From positions 76,484,643-76,548,642 of the forward strand of contig CM049307.1 of the NCBI GenBank assembly GCA_026874595.1: 64,000 nucleotides of DNA, in the 5' to 3' direction. Positions 4,771 to 48,273 of the stretch are shown here, piece by piece. Every line of letters starts with the position of its first letter. Within the stretch, counting starts at the first letter, position 1. This DNA is from Sipunculus nudus (lineage: Eukaryota > Annelida > Sipuncula > Golfingiida > Sipunculidae). A model generated the notes under the pieces. It did no database searches. It had not been told where the DNA came from and was given only the letters and a program-made list of their open reading frames with translations. A program made the translations under genes and the position numbers.

Positions 4771-4781
4771 TCCTCACCCTC

Positions 4782-4812
<31 letters not shown>
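4736..4812. repeat. Compound microsatellite (C)n(CT)n(TA)n
   Basis: A C homopolymer, then a CT run, then after a short spacer a TA run. Confidence 0.95.
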
Positions 4813-4818
<6 letters not shown>

Positions 4819-5150: not shown

Positions 5151-5299
5151 AAATCGAAAATTTTAAATTTCAGATTGACTTAGAAACATTTTATTTGATA
5201 AACCCACTTTCAAAGGATACTTTCTTATATGGTTAAAAAATACCAAACCTATTTCATGATAAAGGTTTCATATTCAAAATTTGTAAACTGTAATCTTAA

Positions 5300-6078: not shown

Positions 6079-6130
6079 GTATGCTGCATATGCAGCTTGT
6101 TTCGATCGCTCAGGGTAGCGAGTGAAAACG

Positions 6131-6184
<54 letters not shown>

Positions 6185-6329
6185 CAAGTTATAGTCTGGT
6201 CATTTTACTTGATTTTTAAGCCAAACCTGAAACATATTGCAACAGAAAGAATTTTTGCTGTATTATGAACAGGAAATACATATGCTGCATATGCAGCTTG
6301 TTTCGATCGCTCAGGGTAGCGAGTAAAAA

Positions 6330-6393
<64 letters not shown>

Positions 6394-6487
6394 CAAGTTA
6401 TAGTCTGGTCCTTTTACTTGATTTTTAAGCCAAGCCTGAAACATATTGCAACAGAAAGAATTTTTGCTGTATTATGAACAGGAAATT
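6079..6487 (+). repeat. 201-bp tandem duplication with internal (TA)n
   Basis: Two units start at about 6079 and 6280. Each has ATGCTGCATATGCAGCTTGT, then GATCGCTCAGGGTAGCGAGT, a long TA run, then AAGCAAGTTATAGTCTGGTC and ending near TATGAACAGGAAAT. The units differ at only a few bases outside the TA run, so the duplication is recent. Open frames over the TA runs are artefacts of the dinucleotide repeat. Confidence 0.9.
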
Positions 6488-6799
6488 CTGGAGAATAACG
6501 TATCACAGTCCCCAAAATTCCTATTTGGGAGAGTCATTTAATTTGATGATTTTAATTGGCTAATTAACTATAAGGTTTTACTTTACTTATCTGTATATTG
6601 TCATATTAAGCTTTGTCTTTACCCCTATGAGGGACCACTTATTTGAAAAATCTCTTCATTACCTATTTCTGAATCTGACTAAGAAGTAAATTTACCAATA
6701 GTAATAATTTCAAGCATATTTTTTAGGGCAGGGCTCAACAATAACATTTGCCCACTCGCCGAAGGGGTTTGAAATGTAGTGAGAACAACTTGCCCCAAA

Positions 6800-7045
6800 G
6801 TCGAAGAGTTGCCAGCTAGGCTTGCGATATATCAGACAATGCCCTTTAATCAGTCCAAGGGCATATCACAAACAGGATAAATCATATAGAAAAAGGAAGA
6901 GGGTTTTTTTTTATATCACGATATGGATCATAAGGGATAGAGGATTATCGACCTCAGGGAATCTTTTTGCATTTAAATGGTGTTCGACCCAAAGTCTATG
7001 AAATGCTAAATAATATATACGGGACCTTTCTAATTCTCCCCTTAT
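6800..7045 (+). repeat. Interspersed repeat, arm A (inverted partner at 9680-9955)
   Basis: Shares with the reverse complement of 9680-9955 a series of blocks: CAGCTAGGC/CAGCTGGGC, GCGATA-ATCAGA, CAGGATAAAT, TATATCACGATATG, TCAGGGAAT and CATTTAA-TGGTGTTC, in the same order. The copies are diverged. The identity of the element is unknown. Confidence 0.6.
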
Positions 7046-7893
7046 AGGAAAGCTTTTTTTATTATGCTAACTTAAATAACCTTGTTAAAACATATGAAAA
7101 TTTCAGTTATATTAAAAGTATAACATATTTACGTAATCCTCACATATCACGACTTAATGATGGACTTCTTTAATGGTTTACTGTCATCATCTTCAGTCTT
7201 TGTCAAACATAATTGTTCGACTGCAAAAAGCTGACTTAATTCATGTTAATAATTTAAGGGCATCTGTGTGCCATCGTGGTAACCAATATGACGTCACACC
7301 TTTAACAATTTGATTAAGGTCTGTTAGTGGGCTTAAGTCTCATGTAAGATTTTTGTAAAAAAGACGGTTGGTCTATGTGTTCAAAACTGTGCATCATTAG
7401 CAAGACATACATTAGAATGCCCAAGAATCAAAGGAAAGTTCAAATGAATGCTAGGATTTTCTAACCGTCACAACCATCGAGCACAATATCGGGTACGGCA
7501 AACGGGTTTGATACAGTAACCAAAGACTTTAATATTTAACTTACAGAATATTATTAAAAATCATTCAAGTACACATTATTTTTGACTGTTACCAACAGGA
7601 ACCGGCATTAACAGAAAGGAAGCACACACCCAGAAGACTTGTTCAGAAAAATCGAAGTACCGGTCGTCTACAAAATGTTAATATTTATTCAGTTATTAAT
7701 TGAATATATGAAGCTAAGCTTAATTAATACACCTGTCCTGTTGCATAGACTGATGAAATTAATGTTATGGGTATAATCTGACATTTTAACATTTTGTTGT
7801 TTAATCTGACATTTGTTATATTCAGTTACTGAGTCTATGTGAAGAGTAAATCTGAAAAAAAAAAGATTTATCTATTTAGTCTTGACTGTTCAT

Positions 7894-17861: not shown

Positions 17862-18235
17862 TAGTAAGTTATGTATGTATGACTCCATTATTGTGAACAT
17901 TTATATATGTAAATACTAAATTAATATATAAATATATAAATACATGTTTATGTGTAAATACAATGTATATACACATAAACATGTATTTATATATTTATTT
18001 GTTTATGGATCAGTTAATTCGAGGCATTTTTTTTTTGTTCAGCCGATTTTAATCCAAGATGACACCCTGGTTAGTTTCCTTACTGGCACAGTTTACAGGC
18101 AATCATTACGGACGATGGACAAAATAAATTTTTTTTAAAAAGACAGCCAGGATGACAGACAGTCCGGACGTTATAAAGTTATAGAGATATTTCAAGTTCC
18201 AGTATATTTCTTAATAATGCGTTTGCTGCTACTGT

Positions 18236-18263
18236 GCTCTCTCTCTTTCTCTCTCTCTCTCTA
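18236..18263. repeat. (CT)n microsatellite
   Basis: Pure CT dinucleotides interrupted once by TTT. Confidence 0.9.
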
Positions 18264-18539
18264 TAAATATATGTATATAAAGTTTAATGCAGCTCAATTT
18301 AATAAAAATATTCAATTTGCACTCAGATGAAAAAAATGCACCAGTCAACATTTTCCACCGATCACAAGCATGAGCCAGCTCCCAGCCAGTTTTGACATAC
18401 AATGTATCAGCTCTGCATGTATCAATTTGCCAGGCTCAATACCCGGGGCTCAGAAGTATTACTTTTAAATAATGGAATTTGTTACACATGTCACACCTTT
18501 ATCTGTTTTTTTATAATGTAGTCAGAAATTCAGAATAAG

Positions 18540-18750
18540 ACAGCACTTCTGCACACGCCGTGCAGTTGACAGGGTCATCTCCCGTGGTGAGCTCCTTCCC
18601 CTTTCCAATTATATGAATTTGACTATTCCTAGCCCATTAAAACACTACAAGAAAAATGAAAATATATTTACAATTAAAATATACAAGGAAGTCTCTGACT
18701 GCCACTGCAGACCCCCTGGGATTTACAGTGTATCCTCGCCATATTAGTGC
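18540..18750 (+). repeat. Conserved block X, copy 1
   Basis: Shares with 24410-24650 the order CCGTGCAGTT-ACA, GCCTAGCCCATT/CTAGCCCATT, TACA-TTAAAATA-ACA-GGAAG, and GACTGCCACTGCAGACCCC-TGGGATTT. In one plus frame the last part reads DCHCRPPGIYSV here and DCHCRPLGICNV in the second copy. Conservation of Cys/His spacing hints at a coding origin, but no full frame is open. Both copies lie downstream (minus-strand sense) of an orphan-family pseudogene. Confidence 0.55.
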
Positions 18751-18759
18751 AGCGTTTCC

Positions 18760-20390
18760 ATGGTCAAATGCTCTATGGTAATACATAGAGATGTGACTAG
18801 GGGGGAATCACTAAAATTTCAAATCCATCAATCTCTTATTTTTACATTTCCCAGATGCAGCTCTGACAATAAAATAATCTGTTTGAATTTTGTTTCTGTC
18901 TTTGTTGGTAACAAAGTTATGGCAAAATTTAAGGTTTTCAGGTAAATGGGTACCGGGAGCATATCTGTCCTGTAAATGGCCGAGTTGGCTCTGGCCAGGT
19001 TTGTGGTCGCCATATTTTGAAATGAATGAGCACAATTTATCTTTTATTCCATGTTACTTTCATCACATTTCATTATATTGTAAAGTTAACATGTTCATCT
19101 TAATTTTTTGTATGGTCATATTAGAAATGTTAAAAAAAATTCAGGCCCCCAAATCAGGCATTTTCCGCAAATTTCAGATATCTCTAATTTTTTTTTGCAT
19201 TTGAGGAAAGGTGAAAAATTCTTCCAAATCCTGTAACAAATATAAATGTTCATCAAGAAAATATATATCGTGACTTATTATTGTCCGTGTTATAGTGATA
19301 TAAGTAAAATTTATTTGGTGTCTAAATGGGACAAGCTTTTAATTTTATCAAAGCTTAAGTTTGCAGATGGGGAGAGCGGTCATCAAAAGACAGCTCTGGC
19401 AAACGCAAAAACCACAAACCATTAAAAACTGAAGGAAATCAATCTCATGTTTCAATAAGCTGTTTATTTAATTAAAAAAGTGAAATGGCATGCATGGTTA
19501 AAAAAATGCAATGGAATAATGTAGCAGTAAAAAGCAAAGAGTCTTTTTTATGTAGAATAAGAAAATTATAAAAAGAGTTCAGCCTCCCCAACACCCCTTA
19601 TAGCTGATCCAACCCCAACTAAAGTAAATGGAGAGTAAACATGCACCAATGACCACATGGAATAGAAAGGTGCAAATCATTTTAATGAAAATACAATTGA
19701 TAAAAGAAGAAGAAGAAAATAAAAGGTTGGCTGAAATCTGATAAATATAAAACAGGAAATTACAAAAAATAACTGTGACAACAAAACTGAAAACAAATCA
19801 TGAGGTTTAACAATAACTAAAATGGCACTGAATGTGTTAAAACAAAAGTTCCTGCTGACTTTCGGCTTGGCCTCCAGAAAAAGAAAAGAAAAACGTATTT
19901 TAGTTTCTTTTCAACTGAATTCATTGAGCATCATAAGTACAGCATTATTCTATACAGCTTGGGGAAGTTTCAAACAAACAAAATATTATATTATCATGTT
20001 AAGCACATATATCAATTACCAAAGATAACTAATGAAACAGTATTAATACATTAAAATGTAATATTGCAATATAAAACAATCACATGCATCAGTTACCAAT
20101 GATAACTAGTGAAAAAAGTATAAATAAGCTGAAGAAGTAATATTATATTATAAAAAAAACATGTATCACTTGGATCCAAGTAAAGAACCTGTCATAGCTT
20201 ATCTGAATGCACCTTACAGGTCCCAAAGGTTGTCCTGGCTAGACTCCACGTAAATGATCCTCAATAAAATAGCAAATGGTTTAAGAAATCCATGAATCCT
20301 TTTGAGTTGTTCCAAGTTCTCTTTATAGTTTGTGTATGGTATATATTCACCCAGTGTCCGGTTCAGATATCAGTATATATTTGTTTGCAG
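18760..20390. other. Insertion-like segment absent from the second copy
   Basis: In the related arrangement at 24.4-24.8 kb, the flanking blocks (CACTGCAGACCCC.. and GAGTGTCAACATGTTTCAG) are almost adjacent. Here about 1.6 kb lies between them. No gene or element ends were recognised inside. Confidence 0.35.
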
Positions 20391-21650
20391 TTCCATTGTT
20401 ATTGTTATATACATATTAAAGTTTGGGATCACAAATTCCACAGACTCGAGTGTCAACATGTTTCAGTTCCAGTGTTTCATTTCCTGATGACCTTGGTATG
20501 ATTCCCGGCCTGGCTGTGGGTTGTAGTAGCCCATCCATTGGAATGCTATTCTGAAGTCCTGATGTTCATGTAGGCCTGGGCAATGGAGTATAGCTTGAAT
20601 CCCAGCATGGCTGTGGCAGTGGGTTGTAGTTGCTATAAGTGTGCAATAGTTCCAAGCATTTTATTAAAAAAAAATAATTTAAGTTATCATAACTCTAAGA
20701 TCCTGAGCTGCATAGTCTTCAAAAGGGCATACCATTCAAGATCTTGGTCTTCATACTGAAGTTTAAGTTATGGGTTGTCTGTATTCTGGTTGTCAACCTT
20801 CATCACTTTTCCAGAGCACCAGTATGTATTGTCCTCTTGGTCAACTGTCTTCCCTACTAGTCGCTGAGATTCAAGTTGAAGTAATTCCAGTTCCCCTTTC
20901 CTTAGATCACTCATCAGCGGAAAGCTATACATCCTACCATGTTCACAACCGTACTGGATCTGATGGACATAACGACGGGACCGCCCAGCTGTAGTGGTCT
21001 CCATACTAACCACCCAACCTGCGAACCACTCTTCCTTGTGCCGAACTCTGTTCCCAGTCAGATCAGATGCAAACTGGATTTGTGGAATGGGGGGACTTCC
21101 TACCAGACTAGAGCTGTTTCCTGTTCTTCTTCCCACATAATAATCTGTCTTCTCCACTTGCAGAGCAGTATCATCAGCAAGAACAGACACTAAGCCATCA
21201 ACTGTCTCTTCTTGAACACACTGATGTTCCGTCTACGCAGCCTCATCATTCTCTAGATGTTGCTCCGCAGCTTGCTAACAGACAGGCAACATCTTACAGC
21301 AGACAGGGTGAGCCTAACGTCTGGGTTGAAACAGAAGCCGGCGGTACTTGTTCTGAACTTTACGGGCAAGGCACTGCTGAAGGTCGGAATCCAACTTGGC
21401 TAAGTGCTTTGGTGCGTGAACTGTAGTCCAGAGGCCACCAACATATGTAAGCTTCACAGAGAGATCCTCCTTAATAAAGCGGGTCCGGCGTTCATGATCT
21501 TCCTTCTCCTGCAATGGAACCTTCCGTTTGTGGGAAATGAACTTAGCATGCTCTGCTGCTCTAGCCAGGTTATCACGGGACAGGGTCTCAACACATTTCC
21601 TATTCCTAAAAGGCTATGTAAGCTGTGTCAGTTTAGCTTTTTATAATACG
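20390..21650 (-). pseudogene. Orphan coiled-coil family, C-terminal fragment (copy 1)
   Basis: Minus-strand relic of the C-terminal third of the family seen in full at 25.2-28.8 kb. The upper part (21514-21314) reads RRTRFIKEDLSVKLTYVGGL and QQCLARKVQNKYRRLL. After a frame change the lower part (21190-20768) gives VGRRTGNSSSLVGSPPIP, GNRVRHKEEWFAGWVVSMET, then YSFPLMSDLRKGELELLQLE, ending in DNQNTDNP and a stop. The GxRVxHxx..WFxGxV..YSFPLMxDxxxGxL pattern resembles Tudor/chromo-like SH3-barrel tails, an inference. Homology to copy 2 stops near 21600, so the N-terminal coil and core are absent. Function unknown; frameshifts indicate a pseudogene. Confidence 0.65.
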
Positions 21651-21659
21651 GTCGAAATG

Positions 21660-22340
21660 CTCAGTTTAAATTAAACTGTTTTGAATATAAATTGAGGCCC
21701 TCAGAATTTAAATGGCACCCATCAGAGACATACTTTGGGTAATAAAGTCTGTTTTGATGAAACAGGAAGCCATTTCCTTGGTGAAGCCAAACTCTTTTAT
21801 TTAATAGTATATTCAATATGTTGGCCCTTTTATTAATGTTTTACCGTAGACCTGATTACCCCTGCTTATCAGTGTTCATTGGAGAACTGAAAAAATATAC
21901 AACACACTGGGGGAAAATATTATACTCACTTAAAAATGTCTGAAAACTTAAAGGCTTAATCTACAATAACAGAAGGGGTACCTGAAGAAGAATACAAGTA
22001 ATTTATTTCCAGATCTACAGAGTAAATATGAATCTCTGTATTTTTTAAATGAACAAGATATCTATCAGCGTCTTCAAATATTCTTTTAAAGGTCAGACCA
22101 GAGTAGCCATTAAAACACACCTTAGTGCTATGTAGAAGCCCCAGCTGATGGCTAACTGGTCCATTGACACTTTAACAATAAATGAAAGCCCTTTTAACAA
22201 AAGAATGTCCAAAATGATAACAAAGCAACTGTGACATTGTAAAATATAAAATTAACCTAGTATTCCAATGTTTCTAAATTCTAGTAATTATTCTTGTCCT
22301 TTATATTTATAATAGTTAAATATTACAAATTAGATGTAAA
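21660..22340. other. No feature recognised
   Basis: AT-rich sequence upstream of the next coding-like frame. Nothing supportable seen. Confidence 0.4.
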
Positions 22341-22346
22341 AAATAA

Positions 22347-22751
22347 ATGAATGCCCCAAGAATAGGAAAGACTATACTCGACCGCGACGAAGGGTCAAGT
22401 GAGAAATTATTGGAGCGACTACAGCTAGAATCACTCACGAAGTTTGGCTGTTTTATCCATGCATATTTCGCTGGTCAGCGAAATAGTCCCCACTGCGCTA
22501 TTCAGCGAATAGACCGTTTCCAAATAGGAAAAGGGCCCGTTTCTTCCCGACCACGACCCCTAACACATAAATCCTGTAGTTTTGACTCCGCTGAGGTCAA
22601 AAGAAGAAAAACCTCTCTAGACTGCATGATCAAAAACAGTGAAAACAACGTGTCCACTGAGCTGTTAAAACGAGTGAACCATGGAACTGGTCAGGCCATT
22701 TATGTTCAAGTGAAATACATTGGGACTAATCTCACACAGGCAAAAGGTTAA
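22347..22751 (+). CDS. Candidate coding sequence, family unknown
   Basis: A 134-codon plus-strand frame starting MNAPRIGKTILDRDEGSS, with normal protein-like composition. Residues about 75-100 (SFDSAEVKRRKTSLDCMIKN) recur in relic form at about 23890-23955. The GC content is higher than in the flanks. A CCGTACGG-rich segment begins immediately after its stop. I do not recognise a domain. It may be an exon of a host gene or of the mobile element whose GC-rich part follows. The ATG is not preceded by any visible promoter; an internal-exon reading is equally possible. Confidence 0.4.
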   Translation: MNAPRIGKTILDRDEGSSEKLLERLQLESLTKFGCFIHAYFAGQRNSPHCAIQRIDRFQIGKGPVSSRPRPLTHKSCSFDSAEVKRRKTSLDCMIKNSENNVSTELLKRVNHGTGQAIYVQVKYIGTNLTQAKG

Positions 22752-22754
22752 AGC

Positions 22755-23780
22755 CGCTATCACATATAGCCTACGGGGCCCGTACGGTGAATAAAATCAC
22801 CGTTTCTGGCTATATTCGCACGGTGCCCGCAAGGTACTAACGATTTTCACGGGCGCCGGTTCAGTTTTAACTCGCCGTACGGGCATTGTGGTGCTAAGCT
22901 GGGTGCGCTCAATTCTCCCGGCGTTTTCAACTAACCGTTAGTCCGTTGAAAGGCCATAGACAGCCCGTACGGTCGCCTTTCGGGCACAGGCCGGTATCCG
23001 TGCGGCATCCGTGTGATTTTTCGGGTAATTTTCCTGAATATATCCGTACGGGCACCGTGCGATAGCCTTACGGTATACGTAAGGGCTCGGTGAGATATGG
23101 AAAATTCGAATGGCTGCTGTGCGGGATCTGCACGGCTCCCTTGCGATGTAAATTTTGCCCGTGCGGTGTCCTCACGGTGCCCTGAATCTGAGCTGTTGGA
23201 TATATAAAATACAGCCACATTGTCATTGACATATATATTATAAACAATGAACCTCTGTGCGCTGAAGCCAACTTCTCTGAATGTGTCAAGTGTTTTATTG
23301 AACTTAGAAAATTGATTTGAATAAGTATAGTTCATAGGGTTGGCTCTACAATAAATATAATATCAATAAATGATTTCCAATAATTGTATTTTGTAGCTAA
23401 CGTTAATTATAAAAAGTCGAATCGAGTTATATAAGAAAAACCTTGATTGTTATATACTGAATAATAATATTGGTCTCTATCCTATTTAACCGTTTCCTAT
23501 TCTTTGGCTTAATGTTCAACAGCTATACATATACATATATAGCAGAAAATAACCTTACGGTGGCCGCACTGTCCAAGCGATAGCCGGCCGGGCACCGTAC
23601 GATGTACTTTTTCGTGCATAAGACCCGCACGGTTACCTTACGATATCCGGACGGCCCCCTAACCAACCAGTTTCGGGGGTCACCGTACGGTCGCCTGTGA
23701 TTAGGTGAGTGCAAACAACGTAAGATGAAACATCACACGGTGACCGTACGGTCTCGAAAACTCATGGCAAGCCGGTTGAA
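22755..23780. repeat. GC-rich CCGTACGG-motif region, probable transposon ends
   Basis: Six exact copies of the palindrome CCGTACGG (near 22780, 22875, 22965, 23044, 23683 and 23744) plus many one-base variants (CCGTGCGG, CCTTACGG, CCGTACGA) occur in two GC-rich clusters (22755-23200 and 23550-23780) separated by AT-rich DNA. Clustered short motifs at both ends of about 1 kb resemble subterminal transposase-binding arrays of a non-autonomous DNA element. Clear terminal inverted repeats and a TSD were not found. Confidence 0.5.
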
Positions 23781-23884
23781 AAAAATCATGTAAAAAAAAC
23801 CTGTGTATATGCGAGCTAGGCATAACCCAGCAACAACAGGGTTTGTCTGCGACAAACGAACGGAGAAAAATGTTAAACATGAAA

Positions 23885-24099
23885 CATGAAGCTTGGATCC
23901 GCAGAAGTCAAAAGAAGTAAAACCCTTTTCAGACTGCATGATCAAAAACAATGATTACTACCAGACACCCATGATGAAGCCGAACCCAGAGCACTTGTCA
24001 CATCATGATAATTCTACGCGGCAACAATTTGTAAAAATTGAACCTCCCCAAGAGTCAAAACTTAATGATAATACACTCGGAGATATTGAACCTGAATAA
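23885..24099 (+). pseudogene. Second copy of the 22.35-kb coding fragment, diverged C-terminus
   Basis: Reads GSAEVKRSKTLF, then after a one-base frame change SDCMIKNNDYYQTPMMKPNP and on to a stop after GDIEPE. The first part matches SAEVKRRKTSLDCMIKN of the frame at 22347-22751. The tail is acidic/Pro-rich and contains FVKIEPP, a good match to the SUMO-acceptor consensus (hydrophobic-Lys-x-Glu), so the parent protein could be a nuclear regulator; that is inference. The phrase ATGATG--GCCGAACCCA-AGCAC-TGTCA also occurs near 17783, suggesting a further relic. Confidence 0.4.
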
Positions 24100-24322
24100 T
24101 TAAATTCAAATTATAAATAAATTTAATAATTTAATAAAATAAAAATTAAATAAAACAGGCAGTCAGATGGAGACAGCATACGGACGGATCGAGAGACCTG
24201 GTGGGCGGGTTTGACCCGACTGACCTGAGGACGATGCTCTTGTGAAAGTTCAGTTACACAAGTTTAATTACTGTAGTGGGAGTGACGAGTCTCCACACAC
24301 ACACATAGCTAGCCAGCTGCCA

Positions 24323-24325
<3 letters not shown>

Positions 24326-24412
<87 letters not shown>
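24326..24412. repeat. Long (TA)n microsatellite
   Basis: Nearly pure TA dinucleotides with one phase slip. Confidence 0.95.
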
Positions 24413-24417
<5 letters not shown>

Positions 24418-24765
24418 CTACACACCGTGCAGTTAACACTAACATCTCCATTGGTTTGCTACCTCCCTCTGCTTTTTAATGATTTGGGCTATGCCTAGCC
24501 CATTTAAAAACTTACTAGATAAAAATACTGTAGAAATTACAAGCAATCTTAAGAAGAAAAATCAAAATATATATACATTTAAAATACACATGGAAGACTA
24601 TGACTGCCACTGCAGACCCCTTGGGATTTGCAATGTGCCAGTTATAATTCAGTGTTGATTGTTAATACATAGAATTGTGTGTAGCTCATTATTACAGTTC
24701 AAGATAACAAATTCCAGAGACTTGAGTGTCAACATGTTTCAGTTACTGATGATCCCATTTCCATT
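24410..24765 (+). repeat. Conserved blocks X and Y, copy 2
   Basis: Block X (24410-24650) parallels 18540-18750 and block Y (24690-24760, TTGAGTGTCAACATGTTTCA) parallels 20440-20475. Here the two blocks are close together, so copy 2 preserves the compact arrangement. Confidence 0.55.
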
Positions 24766-25239
24766 TTGGCATGTCCAGTTCCTTTTCAGATTATCAGCCC
24801 TTCAGTTCCAGGTGTAGATGCCAGCAATGCCAGAAAGATGCTCATATGAACATATGTATACTGGACAGATTACGATGGGCTGGTTTACAGTTGCTTCCAT
24901 TCTGTGTCATTCTTGAATTAATATTTCAGCTAGGAACAGTTGTACCTTGTCGTTAGCATGTAAACTGTATGCAAATGTTTTGTTACATTCTCTCATACGC
25001 CCTAATATGACACGACTCTCTGAAAACAAAGCACAAGACGAGAATAATAACTAATAGTTTTTTTTTTTTTTATTCTAAACCATTCTGCCAAGTGATTGCC
25101 ATTCTTTCAGTAGACTTATCAACTTTACCTAAGTTAACACAGAAAACTTATATAAAAGTACGTATCTTGTTTGAAATTGTCTAATGATAATAAAAAAAAG
25201 TCTAGAGATATTAAATGTTCACATCTGGTGTATAAGAGG

Positions 25240-25500
25240 TACTATGATAGTGGTAAAAAGCCCGGCTCTCTCCCCTTGTGACCTCGTTTGGGATCCCAGC
25301 ATGGCTGTGGCAGTGGGTTGTAGTGGTCAATCCATCTGAATGATATCCTCAGATCCTGATGTTCATGTGGGCCTGGACAATGGAGTGGTAAAAAACTCGG
25401 TTCTCTCCCCAGGTGACTTGCGTTTGATTCCCGACATGGCTTCTGGCAGTGTGTTGTGGTGGCTATTTGCGCAATAGTTCCCAGCATTAATTAAAAAAAA
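25240..25500 (+). repeat. Tandem pair of a SINE-like / 3'-flank repeat
   Basis: Two related units contain GCATGGCTGTGGCAGTGGGTTGTAG or ACATGGCTTCTGGCAGTGTG, with GTGACCTCGTTTGGGATCCC and GTGACTTGCGTTTGATTCCC. The latter resemble a polymerase III B box (GGTTCGAnTCC), and ACAATGGAGTGGTAAAAA resembles an A box. A related unit is at 20505-20665. They could be tRNA-derived SINE heads or simply the conserved 3' flank of the adjacent orphan gene family. Confidence 0.4.
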
Positions 25501-25739
25501 ATATTTGTCCATGTAAAAATGTTTGTGTTGGTCTAGAAGATGGCTCTGCAGTCATAACATGTATAAAATGTATGCAATGTAAATTGTAAATACAAGTGTG
25601 TACAGTAACAAAGTTTTATAAATAAATGACAATTTAAAATAACAGTAACAATGACCTGAAAAAAAAAAATCCCCAGCTGCATAGTCCTCAAACAGGGCTT
25701 ACCATTCAAGATGAAGGTCTCCATACTGAACTTAAAATT

Positions 25740-28700
25740 GTGAGCTGTCTGCATCCTGGTAAAAATTCATCATTTTTCTAGGCAACCAGTATGTATTGCC
25801 CCCTTCATCTTCAGAGCTATGGTGAAGTCCTCCCAGGTGCACCAGGTGCTGAATTTCCAGTTGAAGTACTTCAAGCTCCCCTTTTCTGAGATGACTCATC
25901 AGTGGAAACTATACCTCCTCCCTTGATCACAATCGACAAGACCGCCCAGCTGTACTTGTCTCCAAACTAACCACCCAACCTGCAAACCACACTTCCTTGC
26001 CATCTTCTTCACAGAGTTGTCTAACTCTTTTCCCAAGCAGATCAGCCGCAGACTTGATCCGTGGAATAAGGGACTTCCTACCAGGCTTGACCCATTTCCT
26101 GTTCTTCTTTCCATACAATAATTTGTTCTTTTTTACATGCAGAGCATCAGCGTCAGCAAGAGTTTTCTCTAAACCATCCACGCAATCAACTGTCTCTTCT
26201 TGAACATACTGATGTTCCGTCTGTGCAGCCTCGATCACTATCTGTAGGTTGGTTCTCAGCCTGCTAACAGACATGCGACATCTTCCAGCAGACAGGTTTA
26301 GCACATCATCTGGGTTGGGACTCTGTAACACTTGCCAGCGGTTCTTGGTCTGAACTTCTAGGGCACGGCGCTGCTGAAGGTCGGAGTCCTCTTTGGCTTG
26401 GTGCTCCTCTGGTGCTTAGACTGTAGTCCAGAGACAACCAACATCTGTTATCATCACAGAATGATCCTCTATAATAACGCGGGTCCGGCGGTCATGAACT
26501 TCTGTCTCCTACAACCGAACCTTCCGTTTCTGTGAAGTGAACTTAGCATATTCTGTTCCTCTAGCTAGGTCATCATGGGGCTGGGTCTCAACATCTTTCC
26601 CCACGGTGGCTATTAAACACCTGTCGCTCAGTCTGTTACTTCCTGTTCAACCACATACCTACATGGCTATTTTCTATACATCAGCATTCCCTCAAAGTTC
26701 ACAGTGTCGAGAGATGGTCGAACAAGGAGGCTCTGGTCCAGGGACGCAAAATAATGGGCAATGCTGTCCTTCTTCACACTGATGGTCTTCCCAGAATTTC
26801 TTGGAAAAAACGGCATGCTCACCATCATCAAGATTTGCTGCCAAGTTGTTCCTACACCCAGCCATAAACTCGTCAGCATCAGCTCGAGTATCTGCCGGGT
26901 GATGACACCAGTCCGTGGATGGTCCCTTTTCAGTGCATCTACTACCTGGTCCTTCTTGACTCCAATGTCTGACATGGTGAGCAGGGGAGATGGATCGTCC
27001 ATCCACTTCTCTATGCATGAAACCAAGCGCTAGTACCTCGCATTCATTCAGCTAAAGTGACCTGGCTCCTCAATGGCCTTCCATAATGGCTCTGTGATCA
27101 CTTTGCTGAAAACTCAAAGGGCACTTGCTCGAACAATAAACGGCCCAACCTAAAAATGCTTGTGCTCATCAAAGAAAGCTCGCAGTATCCCGGAATATGA
27201 AGTTAAATCTATTCCCGATGAACTGCTCTAGAGGCAGGCGGCGAAGTCCCAGCTCTGTCTCCATAAAACACATGAACTGTCCAGTAATCCCTGACTTCTG
27301 ACATCCTCGCTCATGCACACTTTAACAGATGGTCCTGGTTATTCGTGTAGTCCCCGACTCTGCCTTCTCAGGAAGGGATGCAGATTCTACTTTCTGTCGG
27401 ACAAAAACCAAAGTATCCCATACCTTCAGCGTTGATTCTGCTACCATATCCAGATCATAAGGATATGAAGTCCACAGAAAAAGTTGTTCATGTTCAGGAC
27501 TGCCTTCTACTCTTGAGTAGTGAGATGTGAATATACACTTGTCACCTCCTGGAATATCTCGTCTCTGTACTCCTTCAGAAGACTGTTAAATTTCTTATTG
27601 AAAATATTGCGGTCACCCATTGTGTTCTTGATATGCATAACTATCTTATGAACATCCGGATTGTCCTCTGCTGTAGAATCTCCGAAGGTCGCCACCTCAT
27701 GCACAACAGTCTTCTAGGTCTGAAAATGGCTTCACTGCCTCCATCAAACATTTCTCTCATACAAATCGTCAGAGTTCTGCCATCTGGAAGTGAAATGTTA
27801 TACGCACCATGAAAATATTTTGTGGTACCATCACAATGCAGCGTAAGGTTGTATGTCTGCTCCATCACTTCACGTAGATGCATCAGGGCAATACCCCGAC
27901 ATTCCAAAATCATGCGACGGGCAAACGCCTCACATGGAAGTCTTTTACCTGAAATTGGTGAAAGTTTTAAATACACACTACACAGTTATGCGCAGACACA
28001 CCCATGGCTCTTGGTTACATGTAACAGGACTGGACGTTATCATCATACCTATTATGCATAAAAAAACATACCTTGTATCATCCAAAAGTTCTTTCAACTT
28101 GTTTTATTAGCCCAAAATGATAATTCTACAGGAAATCTATGTTCTTCTCAGCTCAGTCTCTTGATATTGTTCGTGGCTGCGGTCTTCACTAGACTTGCGT
28201 AACAACTTGCAAATCCTCATCTGTAAATTAAGCTGCTTTCTTCTTTCCTCTTCTACATGGTCCTGAAGACACCTCTTCCTCTCATTCAGAGTAGTAACCA
28301 ATTTGGCTTGTTCCTGGCACTGTCTTGTCAAGGTGAAGAAATGCTCCTGTAACATGACGCTTCTCTCTCGTCATTACATTGAACTGGGCAAACCTCCTGC
28401 AGTCATTGCATCTCTGATTCTGATTCACTGTAGCGCTAATTCATTCGAGTAATTCCAACCTGCAATGCACGGTTCTTCGAGGAAACGTCCTTGAAACTAG
28501 CCAAGCACATATCCCGATCAGCCTCAGCCTTGTGTAGTGCATCTGTCAGTCTGCTGATTTCAATCCTCTGCTGTCTGATGGTAGACTGCAGATTCTTCAA
28601 ATTCTTATCACTATCCTTGACCAGCTTTTCAAATTTGAAACTAAACAGAGTGGTCGCAAATGCTGTCATTTGAGCTCCACGATCCCGCTTTACACTCTTG

Positions 28701-28800
28701 AAGAGGGCCCTCCTTCTGTCTACCAATTTAGTAATAAGTCTGCTCAGGTTATATGCTGTTACCTGATTGATGTCATAATTACACAGACATCAAACAGCCT
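25740..28800 (-). pseudogene. Orphan coiled-coil / core / SH3-tail gene family member (copy 2)
   Basis: Minus-strand relic of a large gene family that I know only as uncharacterised proteins repeated in mollusc and cnidarian genomes. Order: coiled coil 1 (28790-28436; NLQSTIRQQRIEISRLTDAL), coiled coil 2 (28355-28137; QDHVEEERRKQLNLQMRICK), the segment KELLDDTR before an intron, core (27950-27500; TLHCDGTTKYFHGAYN, then IVMHIKNTMGDRNIFNKKFN), mid-core (27290-27200; RRLPLEQFIGNRFNFIFRD), C-core (27026-26667; CIEKWMDDPSPLLTM, VRPSLDTVNFEGMLMY) and the tail (26331-25740; GKEVWFAGWVVSLETSTAGR, then MSHLRKGELEVLQLEIQ). At least six frameshifts and several stops make it non-functional. The GNRFN and HCDGTTK blocks make the family call firm; function is unknown. 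Confidence 0.75.
27951..28056 (-). other. Probable spliceosomal intron in the orphan-family relic
   Basis: Minus-strand sequence leaves coding after GATGATACAAG at GTATGTTTTT and re-enters after CACCAATTTCAG or, one step later, after GTAAAAG, directly before the block RLPCEAFARRMILECRG. The second acceptor keeps the frame. The intron shows that this copy was not generated by reverse transcription of a spliced mRNA. Confidence 0.5.
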
Positions 28801-28809
28801 GTTCACCCT

Positions 28810-30110
28810 TCAATAAAGCCACCTCTTGCCCTGATATATACAATTCTAAAACATTACCATCTGATAAACTAGATAAAATAATAATACCACCTTATGATCC
28901 TGCTTGGCATTCGTCCCAAATCTTCTTTGAGATCCCCAGCATCTTCGCAATATTACCCTGGTGCGTCTATGGTCATACTTCAACAAAAATATCAACAAAA
29001 CCGAAATAAGAATTAAAAAAAAGTACTTATACCAAAATTACATCGGATAAATAACCAAAACAATGTTTATATGTTTGTGTGATTTTTATATAAATATTTG
29101 GACATTTTAAATTAAAACATTATCGACCTGAATAATCTGTGTTAAGTAATGTTCATAGTATCCTTAACATTAACATAATTCTATTAATTAAGTGTTTTCA
29201 CTTGTAGTGAAAATAAAACACATATTAAACTATGACAGTTTGTCATTAAATTTGAAGAAAACTATTACAAACATATATCACTTGTGTCAAAAAGCCCTGT
29301 TTACAGAACAATAGGGGATGCAGGTATGGCTAATGATTAACAGTTGGCCGAGCACAGATATTCCATGTAAACTGTTTGGTGAGGCAAAATAGTGATACTT
29401 AACTGCATTCTTCACTTCTAAGCAGTCATGATTTATTCTTATTTGCCTCATTTGGGCTAAAAACTTAATTATCTTAAATATTTTATATATTTTTTACCAT
29501 CAGTACAACATTTTATTCAATAATTTTGAATTATGCATGGCTAGGTAAAAACTGCCACTGTCATCGATGCCAGTTGAACTTTATTTTTTAATAAAAAAAA
29601 AAATCATATAATTTAAGAAATATAAATAAAAAAGTAATATCCTGATATTTTCAAATCCTAACATTTGTAGGTAACCTGTGCTTAATAATAATGAAAAAGG
29701 GGTAAAGACCGATGTCTGGGAGTGCGTCTTACCTCAGTGTTACAGTGACAGCAGCGGATTCTCCCGCCTCTTGGGCACCAAAACATGATTCGAGAAATAT
29801 ATCCTTTGCGAGTAGAAATAGGCGCGCGTAACAAAAAAAAAAACAAAAAAAAAAAAAAAAAAAACATTGTATTCTATGGAAAAGCTGACAGTCCATCAAC
29901 AAAAATCAACTCCTCGTCTGTGACATTCGATGAATTTTGTAAATAGGATAACTGAACTACTGCAACATTTCCCCGTGTATAATGATCTGAGGGATTCAAA
30001 GAAGGAGTGGGACTTTCAAGAAACCAACACAAACATTATGGGCATTTTTGATTGTATGAATGGCTGTTGCAAGTTTCAGTAACAGATGTAACTAGTCTTA
30101 TTTATTTATT
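28810..30110. other. AT-rich sequence, A-runs, no gene
   Basis: Includes a poly-A stretch at 29831-29864 and shorter ones near 29590-29602. Possible upstream remains of the orphan-family gene exist near 28900-28970 but cannot be fixed. Confidence 0.4.
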
Positions 30111-30114
30111 TGAT

Positions 30115-31729
30115 TTTTAGCTTAGCTGACTGAAAGTCATCTGAGCTTTTGCGATCACTCTTTGTCCATCTTCCGTCCGTTAACAGGGCACAAATCGTAA
30201 CCGCTTGACCTAAAATCTTCCAACTTGACATCTATGGAGTTCCATGTGTCACTAATGCATTGATCGTCATGATTCCTTGCATGCATATTGATCATGGAGT
30301 GTTTCATTAGTTCCTGCAGACTGGTGGCGGCACCTGTATTTATCCAATTTGTACACATTTTTGTCCCCTGCGCTCCGCGGATGCGGGGGACATTGTTTTG
30401 GGTTTGTCTGTCTGTATGTCCGTCCGTCAGTTTTTTTTTTTCGTTTCCGTGCAATGACTTTCCTTATTTTATCCGATTTAATTCAAATTTAGATCATTGA
30501 TTACTCTCATGCATACCCCGGTCGGGATTGGTTTTGGAGTGCCTATCTAAAAAATATTTCTCTCGAGCTCAAAAACAAAATTCTCAAATTTTAGTCCAAT
30601 TTCTCTGTGTGTTTTAATTTATATGTTCGCCTGCAGATATCTTAACATGTCATAGTGGATTTTGGTCCAATTCTCAAGGTGTTTCAGTTTTTATCTTCGC
30701 CTGCAGATGTCTCCACATTTCATAGTGCATCTGTTTAAGTCTCCATATGTCATAATTTTGGTTGCTTATCAAGCATGAAAGCCAACAAGAGGCCGTGGCG
30801 GGGGACATGATTTCCACGAATTTGCTTGTTTCTCTATTTATGAAACCTTTAAAAAGCATACGTCCATTAACAGGGCACAAATCGTAACCGTTAGACCTTG
30901 TACCCCCCCCCCCCCCGAAGAATAATTAAAACTTTGATACAAAAGCTCCAGTAAATAATACATTAATCGCCATTATTCTTTGCATGCAAATGGGTGAGGT
31001 TATTATCAGTTCCTGTAGACTGGTGGCGCCACCTGTATTTTTTTTCAATTTTTAAACAATTTTTCTAGCTCAGTTGACTGAAAGTGATCACCCTTTGTCT
31101 GTCGTCCGTCAAGCCGGTCGTCCGTTTAAAAGGTACAAATCGTAACCATAAAGCATATAGTCATGAACTTCTCTTCATTCTGAACTATATTCTTTGAGTT
31201 ACAGAGCCTGTTCAAACCGTCCCCCCCCCCCCAAAAAAAAAAATAATAATTTAACACACTAATTGCCAGATTCCTCAGGAACGACTTGATTGATTGTCAT
31301 CAATTTGTTTTGTTTATGGGTCTCTTGGCATGAATGGTGGCGCCACCTCTATTATCATATTTTTTACCTGTATTTTGAGAACACTACGTCTGTTAAATAG
31401 GCTCACAACGTAACCCTAAAGGCTAGAGTCATTAAGCTCTTGCATCTGAGTTCCTCAAAAAATCTCAGATACCTGAAATTAGGTAACTGTGACCTATATT
31501 CTCCAAGTTACGGGGCGTGATTGAACATCCCAGAAATATTGCAACAGGTATATACAAATTACCAGATTTCTCAAGAAAGGCTGGAGTGGTGTGCTTATGG
31601 GTCTTGATGAACTTCAGCTGATATGCATGAATTATGATGCCATTTACATTTTCTGAATTAGTTACCAGTGCAAGGACATATTGTCTACATGTCAGTCGGC
31701 TGAGCCTTATGACCCATGGGTCACTTGTT
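30115..31729 (+). mobile_element. HINE-like tandem-repeat element 1
   Basis: Begins TTTTTAGCTTAGCTGACTGA and ends GAGCCTTATGACCCATGGG TCACTTGTT. Between these lie diverged monomers with the landmarks GGGCACAAATCGTAACC (30188 and 30874), GGTGGCGCCACCTGTATTTT and a C-homopolymer. A second head (TCTAGCTCAGTTGACTGAAA at about 31066) suggests two elements fused or nested. No coding capacity. Confidence 0.75.
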
Positions 31730-32640
31730 TTTACTGTATTAATGAGTAGAATATATTTTACTTTATGAAATTATATATGTTTTTTGACCAACGCAGTATG
31801 ACAAATAAATTCTTACTACATTTGTTTTTGGATTGCTGTATTTTTATGCCCACCAAGCTATTCTCGTCTACACGTCAACATACAACGAACAGAGGGTCCT
31901 ACGTTATTGCATTGCATACCTACGTAAATTTACATCCCTGAGCCCTTAGAATAATATGTTCCTGTAAAGAAATTCCTTTTTCCATGTAAAAATTACATGC
32001 AATAAAAATGTTATTTTACGTCCCAGTTACCCGTAAAATAACGTGGACTATTTACAACGGACACTTAAAATTACGGTGCATTGTCATGGTACTCGCTGTC
32101 AGGACTATGGATCGTAATTTAACGGACATCCTTCAACAGTGTAATATGTAAATTTTTTATTGTATTGTTTACTCATGTCTGTTTCATCTTTTTGAGTGTT
32201 TGTGTGAGTTTCAGCCGGTTTGGTTTACCGTTTAAAGTGACCTGGACGTCAATTCCTGACAAAAATTTACACGCAGTATAACTGTACAATGATGTCCCTA
32301 TCATATTCCTTAAGAAAACATTAGAAATTTTTATTATAATATTATTAAACTTTTTCCCTTGATAGGTTGTCGAAGTGTGGTTCCATTGTTGATGCACTTT
32401 GTCAACACACCTAACCAATGTTGAGTTATCTAAGGACACTACCCACACTAGTCATTTCTATGAACTGTAGTTATTTAAAGTATTTTTATTTTTTACAAGG
32501 TCTGTAGGTAAACTTTACTCTAAAGAGTGATAGGTCATTACTCATTGTCTTGGAGATTTAATTAGCTTGTTACAGTCATCCAGAGCTCTCACCACGATTC
32601 GCGGATTCCTAGTAACCTTGCAGCCAGCTGAGCACTGTTA
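31730..32640. other. No gene; possible MITE near 31960-32130
   Basis: The interval 31960-32130 has several TTACG/CGTAA and TTTACA/TGTAAA inverted motifs (CATGTAAAAATTACATG and others), hinting at a small palindromic repeat. Ends were not resolved. Confidence 0.3.
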
Positions 32641-32865
32641 CTGCAAGAAGGCACACGTTTAAGAGACTTAAGGAAAGTGAACTACTGAATTGCATGTCAG
32701 CACAACAATTACATTTAAAATAGCAGAAAATGTAATTCGGGGGGGGGGGGTATTGCAAGAAGGCTCACGTTTTAAAGACCTGAGGAAATTATACAACATC
32801 AATATAATACAAAAATTTATTGCAAGTCAACATATAAATAGCATTTAAAATGGAACAAATTTAAC
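32641..32865. repeat. Tandem duplication, about 110 bp
   Basis: Both units contain TGCAAGAAGGC-CACGTTT, GAC-TGAGGAAA or GACTTAAGGAAA, GCA-GTCA and CATTTAAAAT, in the same order. A G homopolymer lies at the junction (32739-32750). Confidence 0.65.
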
Positions 32866-33194
32866 CAGCAAAATGGTACAATAAGTTTACTTTTCTTACA
32901 CAAACCCAGGCTTCATGTGGCAGATTGTGTAGTCGCATTGAGGGGGTACATCTTTTTTTTTTTTGTAAACAGTAATCTGTTATCCAGAGAAACCTGGTCA
33001 TATTTTGTTTTACCCCCCCCCCCCCCTCCCCACCCCCAAATACGAGAAGCCCCGAAGCAGACAAGGTGTTCAGTGTTTCATTCAGTGTTCTTAATTCGAC
33101 CAGCCTTCAGTTAAGGTGCTTTTACATAAGTACGTAGTCCGTTTGCTTAGTCCGCAATATCGCTTTATAGACTTTTTAATTCATTAATTTCCAT

Positions 33195-33240: not shown

Positions 33241-33360
33241 TTGCTGCTTCCACTTATTTCGATGGAATAAAATCTTGCTATTCTTGTTTGCAATGAGCTC
33301 TTCAGTTACTTGTATGTTAGTCAAGTGAAGTTTAAAGGAGAAGAAGGGTTAATTTAGAAT

Positions 33361-35613
33361 TTTAGCTCAGCTGACTGTAAGTCATCTGAGCTATAGAGAT
33401 CACTCTTTGTCCGTCGTCCGTCCGGCAATCCGACCGTCCGTCCGTTAACAAGGCACAAATCGTAACCACTGGGCCTGGAATCTTCTTACTTCACATGCAG
33501 GGAGGTCCATGAAAAGTCTTCTTGGAAACCTGGAAGTAGGTCTCTGTTACCCATATTCTTCAAGCTATGGGGCTCCGAAATACCCCCCAGAATAATGAAA
33601 AATTTGATACAACAACTCAAATATCTGATCAACTAATGCATTGATCACCATGATTCTTTGCATGCATATTGATCATGGCGTGTTTCATCACTTTCTGCAG
33701 ACTGATGGCGCCACCTGTATTTTCTCGATTTTTTTTTTACTATTTCTAGCTCAGCTGAATGTAAGTCATCTGAGCTATAGCGATCACCCTTTGTCCGTAG
33801 TCCGTCTGTCCGTCCGTCTGTTAACCTGGCACAAATCGTAACTGCTGGACCTAGAAACTTGTAACTTGACATTCTGAGAGGTCCATAAAAATCTCCTTGG
33901 AAAGCAGAAATTAGGTCTCTGTTACCCATATCCTTCGAGCTATGGGGCTCCAAAGTACCCCCCAGAACAGTCAAAAATTTCATACAAAAACTTCAATATC
34001 TCTAAACACATCACTGATGATTTTTGGCATACATATTGATCATGAGATGTTCCATCGGTTCCTGCAGACTGGTGGCGCCACCTGTATTTTTCAATTTTTT
34101 ACGATTTTTTTTTTTCTAAATTTTTGAGACCTTTAAACATGTGAACATCTGTTAACAGGGCACAAATCGTAAAGACTTCACCTAGAATCTTCATTCTTGA
34201 CACTGAGAGACCTATAAAAAAGTCTCCATGGAAACCAGAAATTAGGTCTCTGTTACCCATATCCTTCGAGCTATGGGGCCCCAAAGTCCCCCCCCCCCCC
34301 GAATAGTTGAAAATTTCATACAACAGCTTCAATATCTCATTAACTACATCACTTATGATCATGATTTGTGGCATACATATTGATCATGAGATGTGTCATC
34401 AGTTTCTGTGGTGGCGCCACCTGTTTTTGTTCGATTTTTTACGATTTTTTTTCTCAATTTTTGAGACTTCTAAAGATATGAACATCTGTTAACAGGGCAC
34501 AAATCATGACAACTGGACCAAGAATCTTCATTCTTGACACACAGCGAGAACCATGAAAAGTCTCCATGGAAACCTGAAATTAGGTCTCTTTTACCCATAA
34601 CCTTTAAGCTGAATGGCTCCAAAATACCCCCAGAATAATGAAAAATTTGATACAAAATCTGCAGTATCTCAATAACTACAACACTGATGTTCATGATTTT
34701 TTGCATACATATTAATCATGAGGTGTTCCATCAGTTTCTGCAGACTAAGTGCGCCACCTATATATTTTTTATCGAATTTTTACGAATTTTTTACTCTATT
34801 TTTTTAGACCTTTAAAGACGTTATCTGTCAACAGGGTACAAATCGTAACAACTGGACCTAGATTCTTCATTCTTGTAATGCAAGGAGGCCCATGAAAAAT
34901 GTCTGTGGAAACCTGAAATTAGGTCTCTGTTTCCTATATCCTTCAAACTGTAGGACTCCAAAGTATAACTCAGAATAATGGAAATTTGATACAAAAGCTG
35001 AAGTATCTGAACAACTAATGCAGAGATGACCATGATTCTTTGCATGGATATTGATTATGGAGTGTTTCATCAGTTTCTGCACACTGGTGGTGCCACCTAT
35101 ATATTTTTCAATTTTTCGAATTTTTTTCTCTATTTTTGAGACCTTTAAGGATGCTGTCATCTGTTAATGTGGCACAAATTGTAACAACTTGATCTAGAAT
35201 CTTCATTCTTGTCATGCAAGGAAACCAATGAAAAGTGTCTGTGGAAACCTGAAATTAGGTCTCTGTTACCCATATCCTTCAACCTATAGGACTCGGAAGT
35301 ATCCCTCAGAATAATGGAAAATTTGATACACAAGCTGAAGTATCTAACAACTAATGCAGAGATCACCATGATTCTTTGCATGGATATTGAACATGTGTTT
35401 TTATTAGTTTCTGCAGACTGGTGGAGCCACCTGTATTTTTTTTTAGTTTACGCATTTTTTCTCTATTTTTGAGATATATAAATATCTTGGATTGTTGGTT
35501 AATCTGTTTGATGCTTCAGTTGAATGGGTATATACTACCATTCAGATGATAAAATTTCCTTTTGCGAATCTCTTCCTAGTCAGCTGAGCGTCATGACCCA
35601 TGGGTTACTTGTT
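33361..35613 (+). mobile_element. HINE-like tandem-repeat element 2 (best array)
   Basis: Starts TTTAGCTCAGCTGACTGTAA and ends GACCCATGGGTTACTTGTT. The landmark GGCACAAATCGTAA recurs near 33462, 33827, 34158, 34495, 34835 and 35170, giving steps of 365, 331, 337, 340 and 335 bp. Each monomer reads, in order, the landmark, TCCATG-AAAA-TCTCC, GAAATTAGGTCTCTGTTACC, a variable C-run, AATTTGATACA-AA, CATATTGATCATG, and CTG-TGGCGCCACCTGTATTTT. A second head is embedded at about 33749. The tandem array bounded by fixed termini, without coding, fits Helentron-associated elements. Confidence 0.8.
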
Positions 35614-39099: not shown

Positions 39100-39706
39100 A
39101 GCTTCCAGACCTTAATGCCCCACTTGGTTGACTTACTGTGAATGTAATCCTTAAAAGCAAGCCTACCCGTGAACCCTATCATATCTTTGTCAACACTCAG
39201 TTCTCAGAGAGTTCTCAGTTGAGTGATTAGAGGTCCAAGCTTGAGTAAAGGATACCTGCAATGGCAGAAACAGGCAAATGTAAATACTGATTAATTTTCA
39301 CAAAGCTTGTCTTGGTCATGACAGACGAAATCGAATGACATCTGAGGCAAAGGTCCAGGCTCCTGTAACACCACAGCTGTAACAGACACCTCACACCCAT
39401 AATGATGTTAATGGCAAAAAATGCCCTTACCTCATCCAGGGTCACTGGATGCCAAAAAGGGTCAGCCTTGCCGGGTGCAGTGATCACCAGCTCCGCGTAC
39501 CTGTTCGTATCTGTGCCATATGTTTAAAACAAAAAGTAATAACCAAGGGGGCCGTGCATCCTTCTCCAACTGGTGTCCTGCTCCAGTACGCTCGCTACCA
39601 CAAGCCGGGGTAGTAATTTCACACTCGTTTTTAGACAGCATTGCATTCCAAATCTGCAGCAGTGGTTGTCGGCGGGCGCGAGAGGGTGCCTATGGAGCGG
39701 AAAGGA
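39100..39706 (-). pseudogene. piggyBac transposase relic with one terminal repeat
   Basis: Minus strand. The end TCCTTTCCGCTCCATAGGC abuts TTAA (39707-39710), the piggyBac target. Downstream (39510-39100) the DDE_Tnp_1_7 domain reads TDTNRYAEL, FWHPVTLDEVRAFFAINIIM, SSVMTKTSFVKINQYLHL and then, after a stop, ELSVDKDMIGFTGRLAFKDY and KSTKWGIKVWKL. These are the N-terminal catalytic-core helices and the strand with an Asp corresponding to the second catalytic residue. The remaining C-terminal third and Cys-rich domain were not seen. In-frame stops show it is inactive. Confidence 0.75.
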
Positions 39707-46960: not shown

Positions 46961-46963
46961 GTT

Positions 46964-48273
46964 TTTTAGCTCAGTTGACTGTAAGTCATCTGAGCTTTAC
47001 CAATCAGTATTTGTCACTCTTTGTCCGTCGTCCGGTCGTCCGTCCGTTAACAGGGGCGACTTGACCTAGAACCTTCTTTCTTGATCTGAAGAGAGGCCCA
47101 TGAAAAGTCTCCTTGGAAACATAAAATTAGATCTCTGTTACCCAACATCTGAGTTATAGGGCTTCGAAGTACGCCCCAGAATAATGAAAAATTTGACACA
47201 AAAGCTCAAGTATCTAAACAACTAATACGTTGATCACCATGATTCTTTGCATGAATATGGAATGTTTCATCAGTTTCTGTAGACTGGTGGCACCACCTCG
47301 ATTTTTTTTGCCCCCGCCACAAAGTGGCCACAAACTGCTGGCGCCACCTGTATTTTTTTCTAATTTTTTTCGTATTTTCCTCTATTTTTGAGACTTTCAA
47401 AGATACGGTCGTCTGTTAACAGGGCACACATTGTAATCATTGGACCTGGAATCTTTTAAGTTGACATCCAGAGGTCCGTGAAAAATATCCTTGAAAGGTT
47501 TTAATTTGGTCTCAATACCCATATTCTCTGAGCTATGTGGCTCAAAAGTACACCCCAGAATAATTAAAAATTTCATACAAAAGGTCCAGTATCTGAACAA
47601 CCAATGCATTGACCACCATGATCCTTTGCATGCATATTGATCAAAGTGTTTCGTCAGTTCCTGCAGAATGGTGGCTCAACCTGGATTTATTTCGAATTTT
47701 AACGAATTTGCCCCCTATTTTTTAAATCTTTAAAGATGCGGTCGTCCGTTAACAGGTCACAAATCGTAACCGTTGGTCCTAGAATCTTCTTACTAAACAT
47801 CAAGGGATGTCTATGAAAAGTCTCCTTTGAAAGGTGAAAATAGGTCTCTGTTACCCATAATCATTGAGCTTTGGAACTTATAAGCACCCCCCCCCCCCGG
47901 AATAAATGAAACTTTGATACAAAAGTAGGGCTCAAATCATAACCATTGGACCCAGAATCCTCAAACTTTACATCATGAGATTTCTTCAAAAGTTCTGCCC
48001 AGAATCTTGAAATGGGTCACTGTGAACTATATACTAAGAGTTTTGTCAAATGTTTGAGAACCCCAGAAATGATGAAAATTACACAGAAATAACCAGATTC
48101 CTCAGAATGCTAGTGTGATTGTCATCAAATTTGGTGTGCTTATAGGTCTTGATGAACTTAAGTTAATATGCATGAACGATGATGCCACCTACATTATCTT
48201 AATTAATGCCTGTGCAAGGACATACTGTCAACATGTCAGTCGGCTGAGCGTCATGACCCATGGGTCACTTGTT
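46964..48273 (+). mobile_element. HINE-like tandem-repeat element 3
   Basis: Head TTTTAGCTCAGTTGACTGTAA then GTCATCTGAGC and CTTTGTCCGTCGTCCGGTCG; tail GTCGGCTGAGCGTCATGACCC then ATGGGTCACTTGTT. Monomers begin near 47050, 47410, 47745 and a shortened one near 47930. A C-run at 47889-47899 sits at the same monomer position as those in elements 1, 2 and 4. No coding capacity. Confidence 0.75.

Follow-up and report, generated by a model that had tools for sequence, protein, structure and literature searches.

The question raised by this locus is what kind of sequence has left two broken copies of one unclassified gene side by side in a window of 64,000 nucleotides of the Sipunculus nudus genome (the whole stretch of DNA analysed here; contig CM049307.1, referred to as C2, positions 76484643-76548642). 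The two related minus-strand relics, copy A (window 29843-24726) and copy B (window 21601-18798), belong to one family, and the initial annotation, covering window 25240-28800, a range that takes in part of copy A and nothing of copy B, had proposed either a self-mobilising element or recurrent segmental duplication. Based on family searches run over the same 1.43-Gb genome, copies A and B are very probably decayed copies of an autonomous DNA transposon of the cut-and-paste type with a putative DDE transposase, the nearest intact copies of which measure ~9.1 kb. Complete elements of this family have TAGG/CCTA ends, short terminal inverted repeats (TIRs), and, as a rule, a 7-bp target site duplication (TSD), and the intact ones contain one large intronless frame.

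Intact Copies, Element Ends, and Target Site Duplications

A 114-amino-acid (aa) open reading frame of copy A (window 27641-27985, minus strand), which carries the motif HCDGTTKY with the putative first catalytic Asp, was searched genome-wide; of the 14 stretches that matched, three lie within 1,160-aa open frames that are 74% identical to it over the matched part. The three intact copies concerned are 9,096, 9,138, and 9,143 bp long, all contain an intronless open frame of ~1,160 aa, and are 98.7–99.7% identical over ~9.1 kb with unrelated flanks. All three start with TAGG and end with CCTA (5' sequence TAGGCGGCGTCAGC; 3' sequence GATTCCCCCTA) and are bordered by three different 7-bp TSDs, namely CTGTAAG, CTCCCAG, and GCAAGAC. 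The spread of these near-identical copies is very recent.

When the 251-base 5' end was searched against the genome, at least 16 matches were obtained, at least 14 of which reach the first two bases, and the 199-base 3' end gave at least 22 matches. End pairs 3.4–6.4 kb apart represent shorter copies, from which the core protein is absent among the matches listed; eight of them were read at both junctions, and six have exact 7-bp TSDs, one has a duplication agreeing at six of seven bases, and one has none. Overall, 15 copies were read at both ends, and 13 of them carry an exact 7-bp TSD, one agrees at 6/7 bases, and one lacks a duplication. The tally does not include F2 (a member of subfamily F, see below), the copies in the window, five decayed loci that gave no exact pair, or three 3' junctions lacking a 5' counterpart (L057–L059). 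The TIRs agree at 9, 11, 11, 12, and 12 of the 14 terminal bases for members E1, E4, F1, G1, and G2, respectively. Copy mapping, as suggested in the initial annotation, shows the family to be multi-copy in this genome, and both of the hallmarks that it proposed to look for, TIRs and TSDs, are found in complete copies; inside this genome, the copies have flank boundaries, not the boundary-free single-copy positions which it had set against its own proposal.

The flanks of the intact copy at C3:7570690 were joined with the element removed and one TSD kept (300 bases), and this empty-site query gave 10 genome matches, eight of which lie elsewhere and cover all 300 bases at 96–99% identity. The other two are the copy's own flanks, matched as separate pieces with a nine-base overlap that includes the seven bases of the TSD. 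The joined flanks translate as one open frame through the junction, and it is this frame that the element interrupts. For that one copy, the eight empty sites are direct evidence that the element inserted and duplicated 7 bp. Between the two options of the initial annotation, the self-mobilising element is thus the one upheld, by sharp ends, 7-bp duplications, and these eight paralogous empty sites for one copy.

The surroundings of two copies were also recorded. The C3:7570690 copy (L029 366-944) interrupts a multi-copy frame with a zinc-finger-like sequence (DHACKYHAFCWWCRKSF...SHMKSEKH), the empty sites of which include C3:5394746; the interrupted frame is probably another repeat family and gives a weak zf-C2H2_2 match. 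The young copy at C4:73638749 (L020 near 1249) is located a few bases past an exon-like stretch, MIKAILVFNNHGKPRLSKFYQHY, which is followed by a GTAAGT donor, and is a possible intron-1 insertion; the exon-like stretch is presumably the start of an AP-3 sigma adaptin.

The Putative Transposase

Five members were aligned, four of them 21–36% identical to the first, with the member on C17 truncated N-terminally. In the numbering of the intact element E2, starting at its ATG, residues D390, D465, C511, H514, and E782 are invariant in 5/5 members, in the contexts DGT, MSDR, CxxH, and ExxF..LD, which is what the check for conserved acids suggested in the initial annotation was to look at; the motif NRFN (602–605) is likewise invariant in all five. 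The protein would be a DDE transposase with its first D in DGT, its second D in MSDR followed by CxxH, and its E in ExxF..LD, at spacings of 73–76 (D-D), 31–46 (D-C), and 306–317 (D-E).

According to this assignment, the transposase would bind the element ends, excise the element, and insert it with a 7-bp stagger, and a putative RNase H-like core would be split by a large insertion between the second D and E, as in hAT. The N-terminal coiled coil described in the initial annotation is consistent with coil-type matches, all of them sub-threshold, and would probably serve in the multimerisation of subunits. The SH3-like tail described there fared less well: in the window's subfamily, the tail gives Agenet, Tudor, and MORC2-chromo matches that are all under the Pfam cut-offs, it is not clear in subfamily F and missing from the aligned G frame, and when the tail of copy B alone was folded, the prediction was uninformative, with a mean pLDDT of 33 and nothing recognisable. 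A Tudor/Agenet-like tail in this subfamily may bind chromatin. The shorter copies, which have both ends and no detected core gene, were probably moved in trans.

A phage or viral origin was also considered and rejected: no relatives were found in viral contigs or prokaryote genome contigs, and PHROGs gave one weak coiled-coil match for two of four proteins.

Related Subfamilies

A search with the core of E4, a related protein of 1,182 aa, yielded 92 matched stretches, several per locus (81 of 136 candidates scored), including long frames at 27–33% identity. Part of these stretches were fetched, and five members were aligned; stop-free frames are present in seven loci belonging to groups E, F, and G. 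Over the subfamilies read, complete elements measure 5.7–9.5 kb, and frames extend over ~1,130–1,210 aa from stop to stop. Subfamily G has two copies that are 99.6% identical over 6.6 kb, with the perfect 12-bp TIR TAGGTACCAGCA and the TSDs GTACAAG and ATAATAT, and subfamily F is represented by a 5.7-kb element with ends TAGGTATCTCA and TSD CTTAAAA, the near-identical partner of which, F2, has an unrecognisable 5' end. The ends of E4 (TAGGGACCTTGCTA, TSD TTAATAA, 9,453 bp) were located from the TAGG/CCTA and 7-bp rule alone, with no second copy, and 0.012 such end pairs would be expected by chance, assuming even base composition.

When ten loci were tested with this rule, exactly one pair was found in each of the five intact loci and none in the five decayed ones. 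As a control, all 256 four-base ends were combined with TSD lengths of 4–10 in seven intact loci (TIR score ≥ 9): TAGG-CCTA was recovered at length 7 in 5/7 loci and at lengths 4, 5, 6, 8, 9, and 10 in 0/7, and other four-mers at length 7 were recovered in at most 2/7; the filter against two-letter TSDs used in this control removed the duplications of E4 and G2. TAGG ends and the 7-bp TSD are kept across members that are 21–36% identical to the first. In addition, two divergent subfamilies have tandem repeats downstream of the transposase gene, with a unit of 135 bp in E (L019 7216-7836) and of ~80 bp in E4 (L022 7420-8500).

Copies A and B in the Window

Comparison of E2 with the window by blastn places copy A, which has lost both ends, at window 24726-29843 (minus strand), where element positions 517–726 correspond to window 29843-29635 and positions 2367–7161 to window 28964-24726. 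Its broken transposase gene (window 25666-28957, minus strand) survives as separate frames only, comprising the coiled coil, the HCDGTTKY block, a block with the second D and CxxH, the GNRFN block, and the tail; tblastn pieces in several frames, interrupted by frame-changing indels, span residues 7–1155 of the 1,160-aa stop-to-stop frame of E2. Both halves of the HCDGTTKY/GNRFN core named in the initial annotation are legible, the former in the 114-aa frame and the latter near window 27220 within one of these tblastn pieces. A remnant of the 135-bp tandem unit, which follows the gene in intact copies, was recognised by repeat and blastn comparison at window 25249-25467 (minus strand).

Copy B (window 18798-21601, minus strand) is 5'-truncated and extends from element position 4863 to the 3' end with its terminal CCTA; the BLAST match covers 21601-18801, and the terminal TA extends it to 18798 by reading. 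Its broken C-terminal transposase part (window 20717-21601, minus strand) is 67% identical to E2 residues 837–1148 by tblastn. The seven bases adjoining its 3' end, GTCACAT (window 18791-18797, minus strand), occur nowhere else on the minus strand of window 18001-33000; because this 3' end is the only element end that survives in the window, a TSD partner of the window copies is unobtainable.

The BLAST matches of A and B to the intact element bear out that two minus-strand relics of one family are present, and the reading of a frameshifted gene also holds: in automatic pairwise alignment, copy A has 19 indels with lengths that are not multiples of 3, and the remaining coding part of copy B has five. 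The introns assigned to the gene in the initial annotation have to be withdrawn, since intact copies have one unbroken frame and the largest insertion in copy A relative to it is no longer than 11 bp. The homology beyond the coding part was seen correctly; the conserved 3' blocks, common to A, B, and the intact copies, belong to the non-coding 3' part of the element itself, which includes the 135-bp tandem unit. Identity to an intact copy, taken over the longest pieces, is 79% for A and 83% for B by BLAST (82% and 85% in gapped pairwise alignment), while between A and B it is 73% in their overlap (BLAST). With A and B less similar to each other than either is to the intact copy, they look like two old insertions, and a recent local duplication of A into B was rejected. 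No RNA families were found in the window at gathering score.

Alternative Explanations and Superfamily Assignment

Local copies could also have been made by segmental duplication or unequal exchange without any self-mobility. A distance of 3 kb separates A from B, which share their orientation, and family stretches occur on the same contig at 76.46, 76.90, 79.62, and 79.92 Mb; moreover, two decayed relatives, L025 and L026 (C2:76900500 and C2:79614500), agree at 99.3% identity along 9.1 kb, almost all of the sequence fetched, and are possibly a segmental or assembly duplicate, or else two element copies, element ends having been found in neither. Sharp ends with 7-bp TSDs on several contigs, the empty sites of one copy, and the low A-B identity contradict this explanation, which had been the second option of the initial annotation; it is refuted as the main cause, its overall probability being very small, and may apply to the L025/L026 pair. 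A domesticated host gene family, to which a single long frame and many paralogous stretches would be suited, is scarcely credible: near-identical copies stand at unrelated sites with TSDs, empty sites exist for one of them, and many copies are decayed. This explanation is refuted for the TSD-bearing copies, and single domesticated members are possible elsewhere.

Several observations weigh against a mobile element with a DDE transposase. No transposition was observed. Searches of Pfam, PHROGs, NCBIfam, and PDB sequences gave no transposase link, with weak or sub-threshold matches that are mostly to coiled coils. None of the five members matches a Pfam transposase family (E up to 10 or 5, as in all Pfam searches below), although the same library detects the hAT transposase of the same genome that served as a control (the hAT control), the window's Gypsy relic, and its piggyBac relic; likewise, the PDB sequence matches include no transposase, although the hAT control matches Hermes at 4e-24. 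Further acids, E41, D423, E553, D641, and D789, are invariant in the five-member alignment, so that motif and spacing are the only grounds for assigning D390/D465/E782 as the triad. The copy at C9:7213490 has both ends and no TSD, and five decayed loci gave no exact TSD pair. Finally, most codon differences among young copies are non-synonymous (non-synonymous:synonymous 5:2, 5:2, 4:0, 6:0, and 5:1), as expected without selection since insertion, and recent selection on the frame is therefore not demonstrated.

Among DNA transposons, a highly divergent hAT element is a serious candidate, if a somewhat less than even one. The family and hAT share the order D, D, CxxH, E with a large insertion before E; the spacings are similar to the distances of 67 (D-D), 19 (D-C), and 350 (D-E) in the hAT control, and the corresponding glutamate lies in CERDFG in E4 and in SERLFS in the control. 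Short TIRs, G-rich ends, and a multi-base TSD are further likenesses to hAT elements such as Hermes, Ac, and fungal hAT7. The ends of maize Ac resemble TAGG(G), which also speaks for hAT. The TSD is 7 bp here versus the 8-bp hAT standard; published hAT families include some with TSDs of 5, 6, or 7 bp (hAT5, hAT6, and fungal hAT7), and fungal hAT7 groups with other hATs (PMC12730594). Unlike hAT, the family has a long N-terminal coiled coil, frames of the length given above, and constant TAGG ends with a 7-bp TSD. Neither Dimer_Tnp_hAT nor the zf-BED finger was matched by the five members (the C17 member being N-terminally cut), while the hAT control matches both (3.3e-22 and 2.4e-9) as well as Hermes. 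Profile comparison between the family and the hAT control gave a probability of 0.8%, with thin profiles and low power, and Hermes was not among the 17 PDB matches of a four-member profile (E up to 10); hAT membership thus found no support by profile comparison. As a side observation, hAT elements are plentiful in this genome, with at least 150 passing the PF05699 cut-off (best 150 of 667 candidates scored).

Membership in a Dada-, P-, Kolobok-, or MuDR-like superfamily is improbable. According to the accessible text of PMC3706591, the C/DxxH motif is common to hAT, Kolobok, P, and MuDR, and Dada combines a DDE core with DxxH, 6–7 bp TSDs, and 4.7–11 kb elements, so that the large elements, the TSD length, and the putative DDE core with its C/DxxH motif are shared with the present family. 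The same source describes Dada copies with clear ends in small-RNA genes, U6 and U1 families without TIRs, zinc fingers, and introns except in Perkinsus (PMC3706591). In contrast, the family has TIRs, no introns, and CxxH, not DxxH, in 5/5 members; no small-RNA-gene target was seen, one copy being situated in a protein-coding-like frame that occurs repeatedly and another downstream of an exon-like stretch, with the remaining flanks not searched for RNA genes. The P superfamily, including Galileo, resembles the family in its C/DxxH-type core. Its 7-bp TSD is of the same length, and its ends differ from those of the family. No THAP or P-element profile, nor any other Pfam transposase profile, was matched by the five members.

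Most likely, then, the elements move by a hAT-like cut-and-paste mechanism with a DDE enzyme and belong to a lineage missing from Pfam. No description of TAGG ends combined with a 7-bp TSD and such a transposase was found in open-licence literature, the scope of the search (Repbase and subscription journals lay outside it); a report on coral miniature inverted-repeat transposable elements concerns TTAA elements, as far as its accessible text goes (PMC2872659). The chances are about even that it represents an undescribed superfamily, characterised by TAGG...CCTA ends, a constant 7-bp TSD, and a coiled-coil DDE transposase of ~1,100–1,200 aa without a BED or hAT dimerisation region, recently active and probably hidden among uncharacterised invertebrate proteins. 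According to the Repbase rule, in the accessible text of PMC4455052, sequences of different superfamilies should, in principle, fail to converge when searches are iterated. The family is filed here as a DNA transposon with a hAT-like way of working, with hAT membership not supported and the rank of superfamily as a possibility.

Other Repeats in the Window

A Gypsy-type relic (window 59404-61782, minus strand) retains reverse transcriptase/RNase H, integrase zinc-binding, and integrase core pieces, with an integrase C-terminal piece at window 60475-60990. The transposase relic at window 39227-39523 (minus strand) matches DDE_Tnp_1_7 at 1.7e-6 and is presumably of piggyBac type. Tandem arrays at window 33360-35482, 46963-47925, and 49601-51977, with a unit of ~340 bp as judged by match offsets, are related to an array ~3.5 kb past the 3' end of the C4:73638749 copy. 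Between the two relics, CGTACGG-like motifs are repeated by eye at window 22600-23700, and a 43-bp direct repeat pair (window 22607 and 23919) is 81% alike.

Significance of the Family

With the present reading, the "uncharacterised" proteins of molluscs and cnidarians to which the initial annotation assigned the family would become a mobile-element lineage with a testable mechanism. The family would explain false gene models, and its recent intact copies suit a biochemical test. If it is truly a separate superfamily, it would add a new branch to the DDE transposases with a C/DxxH motif.

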